Part shown: positions 26,214-34,591 of the stretch, one piece after another
How positions within the stretch are numbered: the first letter of the stretch is position 1
Layout of the letters: each line of letters begins with the position of its first letter
Assembly: GCF_946187725.1 (NCBI RefSeq)
Contig: NZ_CAMHSK010000005.1
Coordinates: forward strand, 1-64,000
Reading direction: 5' to 3'
Length of the DNA: 64,000 nt
Source of the DNA: an uncultured Treponema sp.
GTDB lineage: Bacteria; Spirochaetota; Spirochaetia; Treponematales; Treponemataceae
Made by a program: the position numbers and the translations under genes
Notes under the pieces: model-generated
The model's database searches: none
What the model was told of the DNA's origin: nothing
Seen by the model: the letters and a program-made list of their open reading frames with translations, nothing else

Positions 26214-26885
26214 TTACTTTTTACCAAGCAATGTAAAATCGCTCACAGGAGAACTGTACACAATTCCCATGCCAGGTTCTTTGAGGCATTTAAGTTCGCC
26301 AATCGCACCAAGAACGGCTTCTTTTTTTTCATGCTCCACAATGATAATCAACATGTCTTTTTCTGGAACAATATGCACGCCAAAGAATTTTTCATCGTCC
26401 TCGCGGGCAGTGCCTCGTGCATTCAGGACTGTACCACCGCTCGCACCAGCTTTTCGGGCCGCAAACATCACATCGTCAGCGTAGCCTTTGTTCACAATGA
26501 CAGTAATCATGTCGCGGTCTTTTGTATTTGATTCACTCATATTTTCTCCTTTTGATTCTACGGCGGAATTTGAACCGAAAACAGAACCTGCTTTCATCAG
26601 ATTGTCAACATCAAGCGCAAAAAGCTCTCCAAATCCTGATTTTTCATTTTTTGCAGATTCGACGATTGCATTTATAATTGAAGATTTTTTCTCGGATTCG
26701 ATGACCATGTAAATCAAATCTTTCGTCGTTTCGCCCATGCCAAGAATGGCACCGAAATTTGATTTTGCCAAAGCCCGCCCCATAAGAACAGAACCGCCAC
26801 CACAACCAGAATCAACAGCGGCCTTTGTAAGCTTTTCGCCTTTGTCGTGAGGGACGATGCTTACAATCAATTTGAACATACTCAT
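26214..26885 (-). CDS. Tandem PII-like regulator (two fused PII domains)
   Basis: These 223 residues hold two PII-type domains. Domain 1 (about 4-100) has FKLIVSIVPHDKGEKLTKAA and GGSVLMGRA. Domain 2 (about 123-215) has MITVIVNKGYADDVMFAARK and GGTVLNARG. Both keep the glycine-rich nucleotide loop but have a short, unusual T-loop without the classical tyrosine. PII proteins sense ATP/ADP and 2-oxoglutarate and gate transporters. The start overlaps the DUF1538 stop (ATGA), so it probably controls that transporter. A linker with its own ribosome binding site separates the domains. Confidence 0.86.
   Translation of the reverse strand: MSMFKLIVSIVPHDKGEKLTKAAVDSGCGGGSVLMGRALAKSNFGAILGMGETTKDLIYMVIESEKKSSIINAIVESAKNEKSGFGELFALDVDNLMKAGSVFGSNSAVESKGENMSESNTKDRDMITVIVNKGYADDVMFAARKAGASGGTVLNARGTAREDDEKFFGVHIVPEKDMLIIIVEHEKKEAVLGAIGELKCLKEPGMGIVYSSPVSDFTLLGKK
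26538..26553 (-). promoter_or_regulatory. Internal ribosome binding site and ATG within the tandem PII gene
   Basis: AAAAGGAG (26546-26553) is followed by five bases and ATG (26540-26538), in frame at codon 116, exactly before the second PII domain. It could yield a separate second-domain protein. Confidence 0.65.
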
Positions 26886-28417
26886 TTTTCTGCCTCCGAC
26901 CCGATTTTTGCCTTTTCAGAACGATTTGTTTTAATTCTGAAGATAATGCCAAGAATTTGAATCGCTATCAGCGGAGTCATCGCTACAAGAGCAATCACAC
27001 CAAATGCGTCCACCGCAGGATTTCCACCACTTGCAGAAGATGCTCCAAGAGTGAAAGAAAGGACAAAAGTGCTTGTCATTGGACCTGAAGCAACGCCGCC
27101 GGAATCAAAAGCAATTCCAGTAAAAAGTTTTGGACTAATGAACGAGAGGAGAAGGGCAAGAGCGTAACCCGGAATCAGAATATACCAGAGGGAGAAAGCA
27201 AAAAGCACCCTTAACATGGAAATTCCGATTGAGAGCGCAACACCAGAACTCAAAGCCACAAGCATCACTTTTCGCTTGATTGTACCGCCGGAGATTGACT
27301 CAACCTGATCCGTCAAAACCCAGACAGCCGGTTCTGCACAAACAACAATAGCCCCGAAAACAAAGCCCACCGCAACAAGAAGAACTGTCCAAAAAGCGCC
27401 CGTTCTGCTTGCCACACCCAAAACTTCGCCCAAAGCCTCTCCAGCCGGCATAAAACCGCCCTGTGCTCCAGTCAGAAACAGAATCAAACCGACAAAGCTC
27501 AGGACAAATCCCCGAATCATTCGTACGACTTGCATCGGAGGCATTTTTAAGAGAAAAAGCTGAAAAACTGCCGCCATTGCAACAAGCGGAGCAAGAGCTG
27601 CCGAAACTTCTTTTAAAATTGAGGGCAGAAGATTCAGGAACACGAAAATTCCCTGGCCGAGAGAATGTGCCGACTCAGCAGAAAGACTTTCTGAATCAGA
27701 AGCATTGCCGCCGTTCAGCACAATTCCGTAAATGATTACCGCAAGCACTGGTCCGACAGAAGCAATTCCCGTAAGACCGAAAGAATCATCGCTCGAAGAA
27801 GAAAGCTTGCCGTTTTTTGCAGATTTTGAACGAACAGCCGCCACACCGACACCCAATGCCATGATGAACGGAACGGTCATAGGTCCAGTGGTGGCACCAC
27901 CCGAATCAAACGCAACTCCCTGAAATGTAGCTGGAGCCAGAAAAGCCAGCGCGAATACAGCAATGTATGAAATCGTAAGAAGAATATTGAGCGGAATCGA
28001 AAGAACAGTACGCAGGATGCCGAGTGCAACAAAAAGCCCGACACCCACGCCAATCATCAGAATCAAGCCCCATTTGCTTACTTGTGGCGCAATTCCTTTT
28101 ACCTGGTCGGCAAGCACCTGAACATCCGGTTCCGCGACAGTAACAATGAAACCAATCAAAAAAGCCGCAGCAAGCAAGAGAGGAAGGCTCCTCTTTGCAG
28201 TAAGGGCAGCTCCACTCCGTTCGCCAATCGGCAGGATTCCGATGTCAACGCCCAGAAGAAAGATTGTAAGGCCGACAATTACGAGAATTCCGCCGAGCAC
28301 GAATCGTGTTAGCACGAAAAACGGCATGGGAGCAACCGTAAGCCCAAGCAAAATAACCATGAGCATAATCGGTAGCACAGAGGAAACGGTTTCTTTGAAT
28401 TTCTGAAATATATCCAT
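26882..28417 (-). CDS. DUF1538 membrane protein, internally duplicated
   Basis: This 511-residue protein is very hydrophobic, with about 12-14 helices in two homologous halves. The first half has FQGVAFDSGGATTGPMTVPF and the second FTGIAFDSGGVASGPMTSTF at equivalent places; TVAEPDVQVL and VCAEPAVWVL repeat likewise. It is the DUF1538 family, thought to be transporters and often adjacent to PII proteins. The ATGA overlap with the tandem PII gene supports one operon. The substrate is unknown. No clear Shine-Dalgarno or promoter is seen before the ATG at 28417. Confidence 0.85.
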   Translation of the reverse strand: MDIFQKFKETVSSVLPIMLMVILLGLTVAPMPFFVLTRFVLGGILVIVGLTIFLLGVDIGILPIGERSGAALTAKRSLPLLLAAAFLIGFIVTVAEPDVQVLADQVKGIAPQVSKWGLILMIGVGVGLFVALGILRTVLSIPLNILLTISYIAVFALAFLAPATFQGVAFDSGGATTGPMTVPFIMALGVGVAAVRSKSAKNGKLSSSSDDSFGLTGIASVGPVLAVIIYGIVLNGGNASDSESLSAESAHSLGQGIFVFLNLLPSILKEVSAALAPLVAMAAVFQLFLLKMPPMQVVRMIRGFVLSFVGLILFLTGAQGGFMPAGEALGEVLGVASRTGAFWTVLLVAVGFVFGAIVVCAEPAVWVLTDQVESISGGTIKRKVMLVALSSGVALSIGISMLRVLFAFSLWYILIPGYALALLLSFISPKLFTGIAFDSGGVASGPMTSTFVLSFTLGASSASGGNPAVDAFGVIALVAMTPLIAIQILGIIFRIKTNRSEKAKIGSEAEK

Positions 28418-28454: not shown

Positions 28455-29792
28455 TTAGTTGCTTTCTGCAGCTCCAGGCAATCCGATGTCTTTGCGGTAG
28501 AACATTCCGTCAAATTTTACACCTTTCATTGCTTCGTAAGCCTTTTTCCAGGCTTCATCAAAGGTTTCGCCATGAGCAGAGCAAGCAAGAACCCGACCGC
28601 CATTCGTAACAAGAGTCTTCTCTTTTGTTCTTCTGTCATCAATTGCACCAGCAATAAAGATTTTTGCTCCTGCGCCTTCAATCACAGAATTGTCAAAAGC
28701 AATTTCCCTGCCCTTTGCATATTTGACTGGATAACCGCCACTTACAGCAACAGGTGCAACCTGAAAACCGCTCTTCCATTTCATTTCAAAAGAATCAAGC
28801 GAACCGTCAGTAATTGCCTGACAAAGATCTGCAAAATCAAAATCCATCATTGGAAGAACAGCCTGTGTTTCAGGATCACCCAGACGAACATTATATTCAA
28901 GAGCTTTTGGACCAGATTTTGTAATCATGAGGCCAAAGAAAATAAATCCCCTGTAGTCCATTTTTTCTGCAATAAGACCTTTGAGCGTCGGCTGAAGAAT
29001 ATTTTTTTCAAAAGCAGCCATTGTTTCAGCAGTGACATCTTCAAGCGGGCAGACAGCACCCATTCCGCCAGTATTTGGACCTTGTGCTCCGTCAAGAAGA
29101 CGCTTATGGTCACGAGCAGGCAGGAACGCTTTGATGCATGCCTTTCCGTTCGCAGCAGATTCTTCTGTTACGCTAACTGCAGCAAGAACAGAAATTTCAA
29201 CCCCCTGCAAGTATTCTTCGATTACGAGTTTTTTTGCCGCATCGCCCAGGCCGTTCATCAAATCCTCAACGGCTTTTTCGGCTTCTTCGAGAGTTTTTGC
29301 AACGACAACGCCTTTACCAGCCGCAAGACCGTCAGCCTTTACGACGATTGGCGCACCCTTTTCACGGATATAAGCAATTGCCGAATCTTTATCAGTGAAT
29401 GTCTGTGAATCAGCACAGGCAACACCATATTTCTGCATAAAGACTTTTGATAAATCCTTTGACGCTTCAAGTGCCGCACCTTTTGCCTTTGGACCAACCG
29501 TAGGAATTCCCGCATTCCAAAGTGCATCAGCAATTCCATCTGCGAGAGGGTCTTCTGGACCGACTACAGCGAATTTGACATTCTCTGACTTGGCAATAGA
29601 GCAAGCAGCCTCATTGAAAGAAATGTTTTCTGTGGCAGGATTTGCCTGTGGGTCAACATTCCGGCATTTTGCTTCATGAGCAGTACCGCCGTTTCCAGGA
29701 ACACAAATCACTTCATCAACCAGCTTTGACTGGGCAAGTCTCCAGGCGATTGTATGTTCTCTTCCGCCACTTCCAATTACCAGAACTTTCAT
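28455..29792 (-). CDS. purD: Phosphoribosylamine-glycine ligase PurD
   Basis: The 445 residues match the PurD ATP-grasp enzyme. VLVIGSGGREHTIAWRLAQS opens the N-domain; YGVACADSQTF, KADGLAAGKGVVVAKT and GPNTGGMGAVCP mark the ATP-grasp core; and LEYNVRLGDPETQAVLP the metal-binding end. It performs the second step of purine synthesis. ATGAGG lies upstream of the ATG at 29792. The other pur genes are absent in this window. The gene is between the GGDEF and DUF1538 genes, all on the minus strand; the 37-base gaps allow co-transcription. Confidence 0.96.
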   Translation of the reverse strand: MKVLVIGSGGREHTIAWRLAQSKLVDEVICVPGNGGTAHEAKCRNVDPQANPATENISFNEAACSIAKSENVKFAVVGPEDPLADGIADALWNAGIPTVGPKAKGAALEASKDLSKVFMQKYGVACADSQTFTDKDSAIAYIREKGAPIVVKADGLAAGKGVVVAKTLEEAEKAVEDLMNGLGDAAKKLVIEEYLQGVEISVLAAVSVTEESAANGKACIKAFLPARDHKRLLDGAQGPNTGGMGAVCPLEDVTAETMAAFEKNILQPTLKGLIAEKMDYRGFIFFGLMITKSGPKALEYNVRLGDPETQAVLPMMDFDFADLCQAITDGSLDSFEMKWKSGFQVAPVAVSGGYPVKYAKGREIAFDNSVIEGAGAKIFIAGAIDDRRTKEKTLVTNGGRVLACSAHGETFDEAWKKAYEAMKGVKFDGMFYRKDIGLPGAAESN

Positions 29793-29828: not shown

Positions 29829-31553
29829 TTACAGAATTTGGGCAAGTTTTTTTGCCATAAGAAGCGCGAATATGATTTTGTCTTTTTTGAAAGTGCGTGC
29901 CGGCCTGTATAAGTCGTAGCAGACAAAAAGCTGATTCGCTCCAGCTTCATCTTTAACCAAGTATTCAATCGTAGAAGAAATATCGGCTGCATGATAAAGC
30001 TCATACCGTTCCTCATCAATCGAACTTAATACATTTGTGTTATCAAGATGCAGGAAATCATATTTATTCAGCAGTTTGAAGTAATGCTTATCCTGAGCCA
30101 TAAAAGCACTTCGGACATCATCATCGTCTTCACCGACGACATAAAGCAACTTCAAATCTTTGTTGTAAACCGTGATTTTTGAAATTTGAAGATACTTTCG
30201 GATTAATTCAAGCACCCTTGTAACAGTCTGGCCTTTAGTCGTGTCGATTTCACCCATCTGATGGCAAATTTCGAGTTCGGCCTCAACGCACTCATTAAAA
30301 TACTGACCAGAAGCATCACGGCCATCAGCCTGCTTATTTTCGATTAGGATTTTGCTGTGTGCTTCGGGCTTATAAAGAATGTAGCAGTTTCGGCCACGAT
30401 ATTTCGCAATGTAAAGAGATTTATCCGCAATCTCAAAAAGTTCTTCATAAGATTTAGCATTTAGCGGGAAACGGGCAATTCCCATAGAACAGGTGACAAC
30501 ACTCTCTGGCTCAACATTCGTGATGTTCCATTGGATTTCGGTCCGTATGTTCCTTGCGATGGTCCTTATGTCGTCTTCTTCAGTTACATCCAGGAGAACA
30601 AGGAATTCGTCTCCACCAATTCGGCCTGCAATTCCACGACCTTTGATTGCATCGTTTATGCAGCTTGAAATTGTAACAAGAACCTTGTCGCCAAAAATAT
30701 GCCCAAAAGAATCATTACATTCCTTGAACTTGTCAGCATCCAAAATGATGAGCGAACACGGCATTTTATCTTCATTGATTTTTTTGATTGCCAGTTCCGT
30801 GATTGCCTTTTTGTTGTAAAGCCCAGTGAGACCGTCCCGACTTTCGGAATAGGCGTTCATGAGCGGCACATTGTTTTTGGTGAAATTGATTGAAGCAACG
30901 ATGCTTGATTTTCTTCGGGTACTGGTTTTGATTGTATGAACTGTAAGGATTTTTTTATCGACTTGAAGCAACGAATAATACTTGTTTGATACAAACGCTT
31001 CGATATTATCAAACATTGAGTGAAGCTGGTCTGCCGTATCCTCGTTATGAAGATTTAACTGGAATGTCTTTGAAAAATAATCCTTGAACACATCTTTTGA
31101 GCCTTCAAAAATCGTTGTTAAATCTTTTGTGTTTTTAAGGATGAATTGTTTGCCGTCGAAAGTGAAATAGTAGGCATCAAAATTCTGCATGAGAGCAGAA
31201 TACTCGCGCCTTTCAAGCAGTGCCTTGTCTAAAAGTTCCCGCGAATACGAAAGCTCTTCGATTATGACCCGGAAATATTCATCTTCTTTTGTGATTGTAA
31301 AAATAGTCGAAATGTAATTTTCTAAGGATTTTATATTTGCAAGAAAACTTCGTCGTGGGGTTTCATCACCGAAATTTTCAAGGAAGTAGCGAAGATTTTT
31401 TGCATCAGAATCTTCAAGAATGTTTGAGATATTTACATTGAAATCAGTTTTTTGTACAAGCTTGAGAAAAGAGCGGTTTCCATCTTTGACATTTAATTCT
31501 TTGTCAATGACGAAACTTATATCACTAAGCCTTCGATGATTCATTGATTTCAA
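29829..31553 (-). CDS. GGDEF protein, predicted diguanylate cyclase without I-site
   Basis: This 574-residue soluble protein has PAS-like sensory regions (about 10-75 and 120-225), then a GGDEF domain (about 235-390) with GRIGGDEF at 311-318 and the KFKECNDSFGHIFGDKVL metal/GTP segment. The inhibitory RxxD site upstream of GGDEF is absent (IKGRG there), so product feedback may be lacking. The last about 180 residues form a GAF-like domain. A TTG at 31553, eight bases after GGAGGTGGGG, is the best start. It would make c-di-GMP under control of an unknown signal. Confidence 0.87.
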   Translation of the reverse strand: MKSMNHRRLSDISFVIDKELNVKDGNRSFLKLVQKTDFNVNISNILEDSDAKNLRYFLENFGDETPRRSFLANIKSLENYISTIFTITKEDEYFRVIIEELSYSRELLDKALLERREYSALMQNFDAYYFTFDGKQFILKNTKDLTTIFEGSKDVFKDYFSKTFQLNLHNEDTADQLHSMFDNIEAFVSNKYYSLLQVDKKILTVHTIKTSTRRKSSIVASINFTKNNVPLMNAYSESRDGLTGLYNKKAITELAIKKINEDKMPCSLIILDADKFKECNDSFGHIFGDKVLVTISSCINDAIKGRGIAGRIGGDEFLVLLDVTEEDDIRTIARNIRTEIQWNITNVEPESVVTCSMGIARFPLNAKSYEELFEIADKSLYIAKYRGRNCYILYKPEAHSKILIENKQADGRDASGQYFNECVEAELEICHQMGEIDTTKGQTVTRVLELIRKYLQISKITVYNKDLKLLYVVGEDDDDVRSAFMAQDKHYFKLLNKYDFLHLDNTNVLSSIDEERYELYHAADISSTIEYLVKDEAGANQLFVCYDLYRPARTFKKDKIIFALLMAKKLAQIL

Positions 31554-31653: not shown

Positions 31654-33102
31654 TCATTTTTTCCAATAATCAGGAAGGAGGAATATAATCAGGTTGTAAA
31701 GCTCAAGACGACCGGCAATCATTGCAAAACAATACCAGTACTTTAAGAAAGGACAGAGGAACCCGCAGTTTGCCGAAGGATTCAATGCACCAAAGGCAGG
31801 TCCGACATTTCCGACCATTGAAAGGCCTGCCGTAAGACTCGTAAAAATGTCCAGCCCGCAGAAAGTGCTGACCATCATCGTAATAAAAACAAGGGCAAAA
31901 TAGACAAATGTAAAGGCCGCAACATTGAAGACCAAATCTTTCCGACCAGCTTTTTTGTTAATGCTGATGCTGAAAATTCCGTGGGGATGCAACATCCGAA
32001 GCATTTCGTTCTGTGCCTGTTTTTTTAGAACAACCCATCGGATAATCTTGAATCCACCCGAAGTTGAACCAGAAGAACCACCAGTAAAAAAAAGAAGAAA
32101 GATGAAAAACTGTGCGGCGTGCGGCCAATTCGTAAAATCTGCGGTACCGTAACCAGTTGTAGTCATTACAGAAGCTACCTGAAAACTTGAATAACGGAGA
32201 GCCTTTGCAAAAGAACCGTAATGCGGAACCAAAACCAATGCAATTACTATCACGCAAATCAAAAAGAGTGAAATGTACGCTTTGAGTTCGGAATTCTTTT
32301 TTACTTCGTCAAATTTTCCTGTGATGATATAGAAGTAAAGGCTGAAATTCACGCCAGCGAGGAACATGAACACCGTGCAGACTATTTCGACCGCAAGTGA
32401 ATTATATGCACCAATGCTCGCGTTCCGTGTAGCAAAACCGCCAGTGCCAAGCGTAGAAAATGCGTAGGAAAGCGAATCAATTACATCGAGACCGCATATT
32501 TTGAGCGCAATAAAATGAGCCACCGTGAAACCAAAATACAAAAGCCAGAGAGTTTTTGCGGTGCTTGCGATTTTAGGTGTAATTTTGCCCTTGTCAGGAC
32601 CAGTGCTTTCCGCCTTGATAAGCTGAAAACCGCCCACTCCAAGAAGCGGCAGAAGTGCTACGGTAAGAGCGATGATTCCCATTCCGCCGAGCCAGTGCAT
32701 CTGACATCGCCACAAATTTATTGAACGGGGAAGTGATTCAACATCACTTAAAATTGTCGCACCGGTAGTAGAAAATGCGGAAACGCTTTCAAAAAGCGCA
32801 TCATGAAAGACAGAAATTGAACCAGAAAGCAAAAGCGGAACGCTTCCAAATACACTGATTGAAATCCATGCAAGCGCAACGAAAGCAAATACGCTCCTGA
32901 TTGAAAACTTGACTGCTGTTTTTTTGCCCGCAAAGTAAAAAATCGCACCAACAACAAGCGAAACAGCCAGCGGAAGCGCAAAGCTCGAAATCACGCCAAA
33001 TTCACCGCAAGCAAGGGCCGTCGCAATCGGAATAACAAGGCTTACCCCCACAATCGAGAGAACAATAAAAATCAAACGGGCGAATACGAATATTTGTGTC
33101 AT
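31654..33102 (-). CDS. trkH: Trk potassium uptake membrane subunit TrkH
   Basis: The 482-residue membrane protein has the SKT-family four-fold M1-P-M2 repeat: pore loops SAFSTTGATILSD, YAFSTLGTGGFATRN, VASVMTTTGYGTADF and AGLSMVGNVGPAFG, each with its selectivity Gly. The start at 33102 follows a weak GGAAAG; a TTG two codons upstream is also in frame. It takes up K+ together with cytoplasmic TrkA, whose gene lies 49 bases upstream in the same operon. Near-complete length and four pore loops make this firm. Confidence 0.95.
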   Translation of the reverse strand: MTQIFVFARLIFIVLSIVGVSLVIPIATALACGEFGVISSFALPLAVSLVVGAIFYFAGKKTAVKFSIRSVFAFVALAWISISVFGSVPLLLSGSISVFHDALFESVSAFSTTGATILSDVESLPRSINLWRCQMHWLGGMGIIALTVALLPLLGVGGFQLIKAESTGPDKGKITPKIASTAKTLWLLYFGFTVAHFIALKICGLDVIDSLSYAFSTLGTGGFATRNASIGAYNSLAVEIVCTVFMFLAGVNFSLYFYIITGKFDEVKKNSELKAYISLFLICVIVIALVLVPHYGSFAKALRYSSFQVASVMTTTGYGTADFTNWPHAAQFFIFLLFFTGGSSGSTSGGFKIIRWVVLKKQAQNEMLRMLHPHGIFSISINKKAGRKDLVFNVAAFTFVYFALVFITMMVSTFCGLDIFTSLTAGLSMVGNVGPAFGALNPSANCGFLCPFLKYWYCFAMIAGRLELYNLIIFLLPDYWKK

Positions 33103-33151
33103 TATCAACTTTCCATCTTTAGATTTCTATAGATTTTTATCTTTCAATTTT

Positions 33152-34591
33152 TTACAGTTCTGTGCCGAATTTACGCATTACATGGTCATTTTCGGCGGCA
33201 TTGATAATCAGAATGATTTTATCACCTGATTCGAGCACAGAATTTCCGCCCGGAATAGAAAATTTCTCTTCACCAGTTTTTTGAACCTGAAGAACGAGGA
33301 ATTTACCGTTTTCAGCAATGTCTTTAAGAGCCTTTCCTTTTACTTCACTTTCTTCAGGAACAATTATTTCTGCAATTTCAAGCGAACCACCGTTCACCGA
33401 ATGAATTCCTGTAACACTGTCACCACGAAGATGACTCATAATACTGTCGATTACAGAATCACGGATTGGAACAGCAACTTCGATTCCGATTTTACGGGCA
33501 ACTTCACCAAAAGCAGAATTTGAAACCAGAGCAATACTGTTTTCAACTCCCAAAGATTCGATATAAGCTGCCATGACCATGTTAAGCTCATAATTCGGAG
33601 TGGCACAAATCACAAGGTCAAATTTATCAATTCCCTCTTCTTCAACAAAGCCTTCTTCTGTGACATCTGAACAGAAAACCCTTGTCGTCGGAAACTTTTC
33701 GCTCGCAGCCTTTGCATTTGCCTCATTCGAATCAACAATCACAAAATCCTGACTTATTCGCGACTTAAAGCCAAGAATCTTCTTGAAACGGCTCCGACTT
33801 TCTCGTTTTATCAGCCTTTCCGCAACAATCATTCCGATTCGGCTTGCACCCACAAGAGCGACTTTTTTTACATCCTTGACCTTTGAACCGCACAAAGCAA
33901 GCATCTCAGGCAAATTTTCCCTCTGCATCAGAATTCCAATGCAATCACCGCCATGTAAAATTGTGCCGCCACTCGGAAGCGAAGTCTCGCCGTCACATTC
34001 AACATAGGCAACCAAAAAATGTTTTTCGGTCAGTTTACGCATATTCTGCAGGGCAATTCCGTCAAGACGACTGCCTTTTTCGACCGTAACCCTAATCAAC
34101 TCATAGGGCGAATTATCAAACTGAAGAGAGTCCGTGATTGCACCATGCTCAACAGCCGCAACAATCGCTTCGGCCGCCTCAACATCAGGATGAATCATGT
34201 AATCAATTCCGTAAAGATGACGGTTTTCGCTCGAAAGTTTGCTTGCATGTTTTTGACTTGCAGTGCTTGTATTAACATAATAAGCGTAATTTCGTACACG
34301 CGCGATTTTAAGGATTTTAGGATAAACGGAATCAACGAGAGAGCAGGTAATCATATTCACTTCATCGTTCGAGGTTACGCACACAAGAGCATCAGCGTCT
34401 TCGATTCCAGCCTCTTCAAGCGTATCAAGATTATTTCCGTCAGCCTGGATTACATTACAGTCCAAACGATTTGAAGCATGACGCACTACATCCTCATCAT
34501 TGTCGATAAGAACGACATCATTTTTTCCATTGATAAGGCGTTTTGCAAGCTGAGTTCCAGTGAACCCGGCTCCCACAATTACGATTTTCAT
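33152..34591 (-). CDS. trkA: Trk potassium transporter regulatory subunit TrkA
   Basis: The 479 residues contain two RCK modules. The first starts with MKIVIVGAGFTGTQLAKRLI (nucleotide-binding glycine motif at 7-12), the second with KVALVGASRIGMIVAERLIK near residue 250; each is followed by an RCK_C domain. TrkA binds NAD(H)/ATP and gates TrkH. No Shine-Dalgarno precedes the ATG at 34591. Instead TGATAGAAT ends six bases before it, suggesting a leaderless trkA-trkH message. Confidence 0.95.
   Translation of the reverse strand: MKIVIVGAGFTGTQLAKRLINGKNDVVLIDNDEDVVRHASNRLDCNVIQADGNNLDTLEEAGIEDADALVCVTSNDEVNMITCSLVDSVYPKILKIARVRNYAYYVNTSTASQKHASKLSSENRHLYGIDYMIHPDVEAAEAIVAAVEHGAITDSLQFDNSPYELIRVTVEKGSRLDGIALQNMRKLTEKHFLVAYVECDGETSLPSGGTILHGGDCIGILMQRENLPEMLALCGSKVKDVKKVALVGASRIGMIVAERLIKRESRSRFKKILGFKSRISQDFVIVDSNEANAKAASEKFPTTRVFCSDVTEEGFVEEEGIDKFDLVICATPNYELNMVMAAYIESLGVENSIALVSNSAFGEVARKIGIEVAVPIRDSVIDSIMSHLRGDSVTGIHSVNGGSLEIAEIIVPEESEVKGKALKDIAENGKFLVLQVQKTGEEKFSIPGGNSVLESGDKIILIINAAENDHVMRKFGTEL

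Follow-up and report, generated by a model that had tools for sequence, protein, structure and literature searches.

A tandem PII-like gene beside a DUF1538 transporter gene, with a conserved internal start predicted to yield a second, single-domain protein

The tandem gene and its neighbourhood

The window analysed here, a stretch of 64,000 nucleotides, carries a gene for a PII-like protein composed of two domains (D1 and D2) and a connecting linker (Table 1). It lies directly downstream of a DUF1538 gene, its ATG overlapping the stop codon of the latter (ATGA overlap). Two PII-type domains joined by a linker had been proposed in the initial annotation, and both halves were PII-like according to Pfam P-II and Foldseek, the gene being on the minus strand. 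The whole protein matched Pfam P-II with 52.9 bits and D2 alone with 36.4 bits (cut-off, 25 bits), while D1 alone reached 21.6 bits, under the cut-off. The AlphaFold2 model, obtained from a 64-sequence alignment, comprised two confident domains (pLDDT 87, pTM 0.83), with pLDDT <50 at linker residues 101–118. Foldseek assigned the ferredoxin-like PII fold with a probability of 1.00 to many PII/GlnK chains over ~90 residues; solved PII and GlnK chains were the well-superposed matches, and the structure of the PII-NrtBCD complex was among the fold matches. Chlorite-dismutase-like chains, which ranked as the top hits, were set aside as poor alignments extending over two domains (rmsd ~17).

The T-loop uridylylation motif of canonical GlnB/GlnK, Y-[KR]-G-[AS]-[AE]-Y, was absent from both D1 and D2 upon reading of the translation, and the canonical PII of the source genome is encoded by another gene. 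The NCBIfam model NF045581 (PG0541 family transporter-associated protein) was matched with 21.7 to 22.6 bits, below its cut-off of 45.

Table 1. Features of the tandem PII-like locus, in window coordinates
Feature	Position	Strand	Basis
DUF1538 gene, fused UmpA-like and UmpB-like halves, putative Na+/Li+/K+:H+ antiporter, 511 aa	26882..28417	-	profile matches
Shine-Dalgarno (SD) GGAGG of the tandem's own start (ATG 26885-26883)	26893..26897	-	sequence
Tandem PII-like gene, long product D1-linker-D2, 223 aa	26214..26885	-	ORF and translation, Pfam P-II, AlphaFold2, Foldseek
PII-like domain 1 (D1), residues 4-100	26586..26876	-	Pfam (alone below cut-off), AlphaFold2, Foldseek
Linker, residues 101-123	26517..26585	-	mostly disordered in the model; unconserved except SD and ATG
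Internal SD AGGAG	26546..26550	-	sequence; conserved in relatives
Internal start codon ATG, codon 116, in frame	26538..26540	-	sequence; conserved in relatives
Predicted short product, single PII-like D2, 108 aa, beginning MSESNTKDRDM	26214..26540	-	inferred from the conserved site and stand-alone D2 genes
PII-like domain 2 (D2), residues 124-222, the better conserved domain	26220..26516	-	Pfam; identity within the genus

The neighbouring gene matched Pfam DUF1538 with 427.8 bits. The DUF1538 protein UmpAB of Halomonas is a two-component Na+(Li+,K+)/H+ antiporter, and the paper describing it makes no mention of PII (PMC5484666). Counterparts of both UmpA and UmpB are present in the gene upstream of the tandem, although here they are fused in one gene and only distantly related, scoring far below the NCBIfam thresholds for the UmpA and UmpB equivalogs (194 bits where 490 are required, and 146 where 500 are). 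The suggested substrates of the putative antiporter derive from this distant relative. Further upstream on the minus strand are purD (28455–29792), a gene for a GGDEF protein (29829–31553), and TrkH-like and TrkA-like potassium uptake genes (31654–34591), so that the DUF1538-PII pair lies in a cation-transport neighbourhood.

The tandem was present in 56 of the 59 genomes of the source genus, that of the window included, being recovered as a single match in 55 and, in the remaining one, as two matches that adjoin in the same frame. It also occurs in other families of the source order and in Sphaerochaetaceae. Scanning genome contigs with a D2 profile yielded 75 further tandems, some from genomes already counted, belonging to Spirochaetota, Desulfovibrionaceae and other deltaproteobacterial bins, Planctomycetota, and Synergistaceae. 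DUF1538 adjoined 74 of these 75, the remaining one lying at a contig end, and the tandem is nearly always the gene immediately downstream; judged by gene order, the linkage of the tandem to the DUF1538 transporter gene is conserved. Mean pairwise identity within the genus was 66.5% for D2, 44.2% for D1, and 24.5% for the linker, the length of which ranged from about 11 to 63 residues across relatives.

Some loci were atypical. In G064 (L178:1479-4636) a 681-aa DUF1538 gene is directly followed by a gene for a 371-aa protein weakly similar to the tandem, of which it may be a highly diverged form, and similar weak matches occurred in G073, G092, and G096. In L273 (G168:C4:42400-44000) the reading frame of the D1 piece is not that of the D2 piece, as would be seen in a frameshifted or misassembled tandem, and AAGGAG-ATG still stands before D2.

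Conservation of the internal start

The linker carries AAAAGGAG-N5-ATG in frame at codon 116, within the motif AAAAGGAGAAAATATG at 26553–26538 of the minus strand, precisely where the initial annotation had located an internal ribosome binding site and start codon. The window contains a single copy of the strict motif, where 0.04 would be expected, and three copies of the relaxed motif AAGGAG-N4-8-ATG, where 2.8 would be expected. Since the relaxed motif is no commoner than chance, the site is weak evidence when this genome is taken by itself, and it is conservation across relatives that raises it above chance.

Conservation was assessed at 131 distinct tandem loci by scoring the pairing with the anti-SD of the last ATG before D2, a codon chosen blind to the SD, so that the site was not selected by its SD. 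The usual anti-SD sequence was assumed; the 3′ end of the source 16S rRNA was not found with the pattern used. Pairing was -5 kcal/mol or better in 129 of the 131 loci and -7 or better in 110, compared with 14.8% and 3.1%, respectively, of the in-frame ATGs of the neighbouring gene used as a control. Other in-frame ATGs within the tandem reached -5 in 29% of cases, above those of the neighbouring gene but far under the internal site. The two loci missing the -5 limit were L046, where the SD is carried by ATGs a few codons upstream, and L074, which has a weak site. The linkers of L062 and L068 lack an ATG and have a GTG with an SD instead, and that of L109 has no ATG. When the best linker start was considered in the first 68 orthologues, pairing was -5.4 kcal/mol or better in all of them. 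The orthologue comparison called for in the initial annotation thus upheld the site, and a chance motif, compatible with the count in the window, was ruled out across orthologues.

The nucleotides rather than the encoded residues appear to be maintained. The SD core was spread over all three codon frames (75/36/18), and consequently the peptide encoded there varies (KGE, RRK, KEE, and others). When synonymous codons were redrawn at local usage, the mean pairing was -5.94 (SD, 0.20) as opposed to -8.68 observed, corresponding to z = -14, a value which pools related sequences and therefore overstates their independence, although the linkers are very diverged. The codons in excess at the site were GGA for Gly, used 96 times where 43 were expected, and AGG for Arg, used 21 times where 5.7 were. 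In an earlier per-sequence version of the synonymous test, 3 of 68 sequences fell under 0.05 singly, the signal being strong only upon pooling. The internal site was also more open, i.e. less paired, than other in-frame ATGs (0.59 vs. 0.43, p = 1e-14). Selection for a linker peptide motif (KGE..M) was excluded by the occurrence of the SD in three frames and by the codon bias toward it. The SD signal resides in the RNA and not in the protein, and the comparison of orthologues shows that selection maintains the internal codon as a start of translation.

Relatives in which the second domain is encoded elsewhere

Nine Sphaerochaetaceae genomes (G098, G099, G101, G138, G155, G167, G184, G188, and G195) have a tandem without a linker ATG, G195 bearing a GTG with an SD-like stretch upstream. 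In all nine, a single-domain D2 gene stands by itself far from the operon, preceded by a strong SD; conversely, the ATG-SD site was absent from the tandem in 9/9 Sphaerochaetaceae genomes having both genes. Among the sampled genomes with a tandem and no stand-alone D2 gene, the site was present in 63 of 68 under a strict rule. The other five include G130 and G191, with a GTG preceded by a strong SD, and three discordant genomes: G103 and G140, in which the ATG has a weak SD (-3.3 and -3.5), and G102, in which the linker has no ATG and the draft genome yielded no stand-alone D2 gene. In two further drafts (G100 and G134) the stand-alone gene was present and the tandem was not found. Within the source genus (59 genomes, 56 with the tandem) there was no separate D2 gene. 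Separate-gene versions of D2, which the initial annotation had proposed to seek, exist in Sphaerochaetaceae, and tandems lacking AGGAG/ATG, sought as a refutation of the internal start, are few, most of them occurring in genomes where that short protein has its own gene.

The stand-alone genes resemble the internal open reading frame at its very beginning. Their first codon is the equivalent of the internal Met (METPHTLIT and MHTPHTLIT, as compared with MDSPHTLIT and MGSPHTLIT), and AGGAGG or GGAGG occupies the place of the internal SD. In the phylogenetic tree, stand-alone D2s branch among the D2s of site-bearing tandems; being nested inside them, those of Sphaerochaetaceae derive from tandems. 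As the stand-alone D2s and the site-less tandems each form essentially one clade, the complementarity represents one or two evolutionary events and not nine. Single PII-like ORFs of intermediate score (~62–66 bits to the D2 model) were also encountered in G117:C2, G118:C156, and G137:C66, from Planctomycetaceae and a deltaproteobacterial bin, where site-bearing tandems are found too.

A third layout was observed in seven Sphaerochaetaceae genomes (L177 and L275–L280), whose DUF1538 protein, of about 600–690 aa, has a further C-terminal PII domain. A PII-like gene lies directly beside this fusion in every case, as a complete tandem in L275–L279 and cut by the contig end in L177 and L280. None of the seven tandems inspected from this layout (L159, L259, L260, L261, L263, L264, and L271) has the internal site. 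With an internal start, a separate gene, or a transporter fusion, the outcome would thus be a tandem plus one further single domain each time.

Products of the gene and their possible assembly

The favoured interpretation is that one gene makes two proteins, the tandem D1-D2 and a single D2, with an estimated probability of about 0.87. One mRNA would be translated twice, ribosomes starting from 26885 producing D1-D2 and those binding the SD at 26550–26546 and starting at 26540 producing D2 alone, with both proteins expected to accumulate. The initial annotation had offered two readings, a recent fusion with a retained start or one gene with a tandem and a single-domain product, and the latter is strongly supported by comparative evidence, namely the conserved SD and ATG and the complementary D2 genes.

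A recent fusion is rejected, the fused gene being old and common to many genera and several phyla, with a linker that diverged around the preserved SD and ATG. In a related reading, two adjacent PII genes fused and the ribosome binding site of the second survives as a functionless remnant. The site does sit exactly where a second gene would begin, and single-domain D2 genes exist. Nevertheless, such a remnant is hardly credible: the fusion spans several phyla, the surrounding linker has diverged to 24.5% identity, the SD exceeds the synonymous expectation by 14 SD, and the known stand-alone D2 genes nest inside tandem D2s, so that in their family they derive from the tandem. SD-like motifs have also been proposed to slow elongating ribosomes, though this is disputed, and a motif in the interdomain linker might cause a pause in which D1 folds before D2, with no short protein being initiated. 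A pause, however, needs no start codon, yet ATG or GTG is kept at initiation spacing; the site is missing from the tandems of relatives that encode D2 separately, although these retain the domain boundary, and the stand-alone genes begin at the equivalent Met, all of which makes pausing very unlikely as an explanation. The short product could instead be translated from its own transcript, driven by an internal promoter, in which case the same SD would serve, as it would on either mRNA. This is unlikely, if less so than a pause, a weak point against it being that the space upstream of the site is filled by D1 coding sequence.

As for the function of the two products encoded by the single gene, members of the PII family are nucleotide-binding proteins that attach to transporters, as GlnK does to AmtB and PII to NrtBCD. 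On this basis, the gene would regulate the adjoining DUF1538 cation/proton antiporter, and the tandem and D2 probably dock on it by analogy, in a ligand-dependent manner such as that of GlnK on AmtB. Least certain is the stoichiometry. Canonical PII proteins are homotrimers (PMC3023670), and one tandem chain and one D2 chain would together supply the three domains of a PII trimer. A 2+1 trimer gating the transporter is plausible. In its full form, the proposal is a hetero-assembly of fixed make-up, in which a D1-D2 chain and a single D2 chain combine into a pseudo-trimer whose three positions all differ and which caps the DUF1538 antiporter, the third domain being provided interchangeably by the internal translation start, a separate gene, or the fusion to the transporter; it is advanced tentatively, at somewhat less than even odds. 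A comparably likely prospect is that both products are made and act apart, as tandem-only assemblies and ordinary D2 homotrimers with no 2+1 complex. The homotrimeric state of canonical PII proteins and the existence of stand-alone D2 genes far from the transporter agree with separate action, whereas the supply of a tandem and one further single domain in all three gene layouts is simply explained by the 2+1 arrangement.

By mechanism, the nearest known case is that of the Cas8/Cas11 genes, for which relatives encoding Cas11 as a separate gene also exist, as observed for D2 in the 9/9 complementary Sphaerochaetaceae genomes. There an in-frame internal start allows the C-terminal part of a gene to be made separately, Cas11 joining the same complex as the long product, and the same is proposed for the tandem PII, whose in-frame start with its SD lies at the domain boundary and is conserved under selection. 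The protein family and function are different, and the short D2 shares the fold of the first half. Internal in-frame starts yielding Cas11 are described for cas8b, cas8c, and cas10d (McBride et al., 2020, as cited in PMC11899642; Sailer et al., 2025, PMC11899642). Cas11b was proven by westerns and mutation (PMC11899642), whereas the short D2 is predicted here by comparison.

GlnK-AmtB, PII-NrtBCD, and SbtB-SbtA share with the tandem the PII fold, present in each of its halves, and a gene located beside that of a membrane transporter. Those regulators are single-domain homotrimers, while here a tandem has an embedded second start, no uridylylation-type T-loop motif was read, and the partner would be a DUF1538 antiporter. 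Internal initiation has precedents, as does the regulation of transporters by PII. What seems new is that the two meet in a conserved tandem PII gene for which stand-alone genes can compensate: no earlier report of a tandem PII with DUF1538, or of internal initiation in PII, was found in the open-access literature searched.

Few signal proteins are as widespread as those of the PII family, which are usually portrayed as homotrimers of single domains. If the proposed reading holds, production of a tandem and a single domain from one message would fix the composition of a PII assembly by a novel route. The DUF1538 antiporters, which have received little study, would gain a candidate regulator, and the few internal starts with evolutionary support would be joined by a clear example; annotation as one P-II protein would then miss a product in many bacteria. 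The source genome itself has another PII-transporter fusion, a single 565-aa ORF (G000:C14:50697-52394; L181:3698-5395, minus) in which a canonical GlnK-like PII is fused to the C-terminus of an AmtB-like ammonium transporter.
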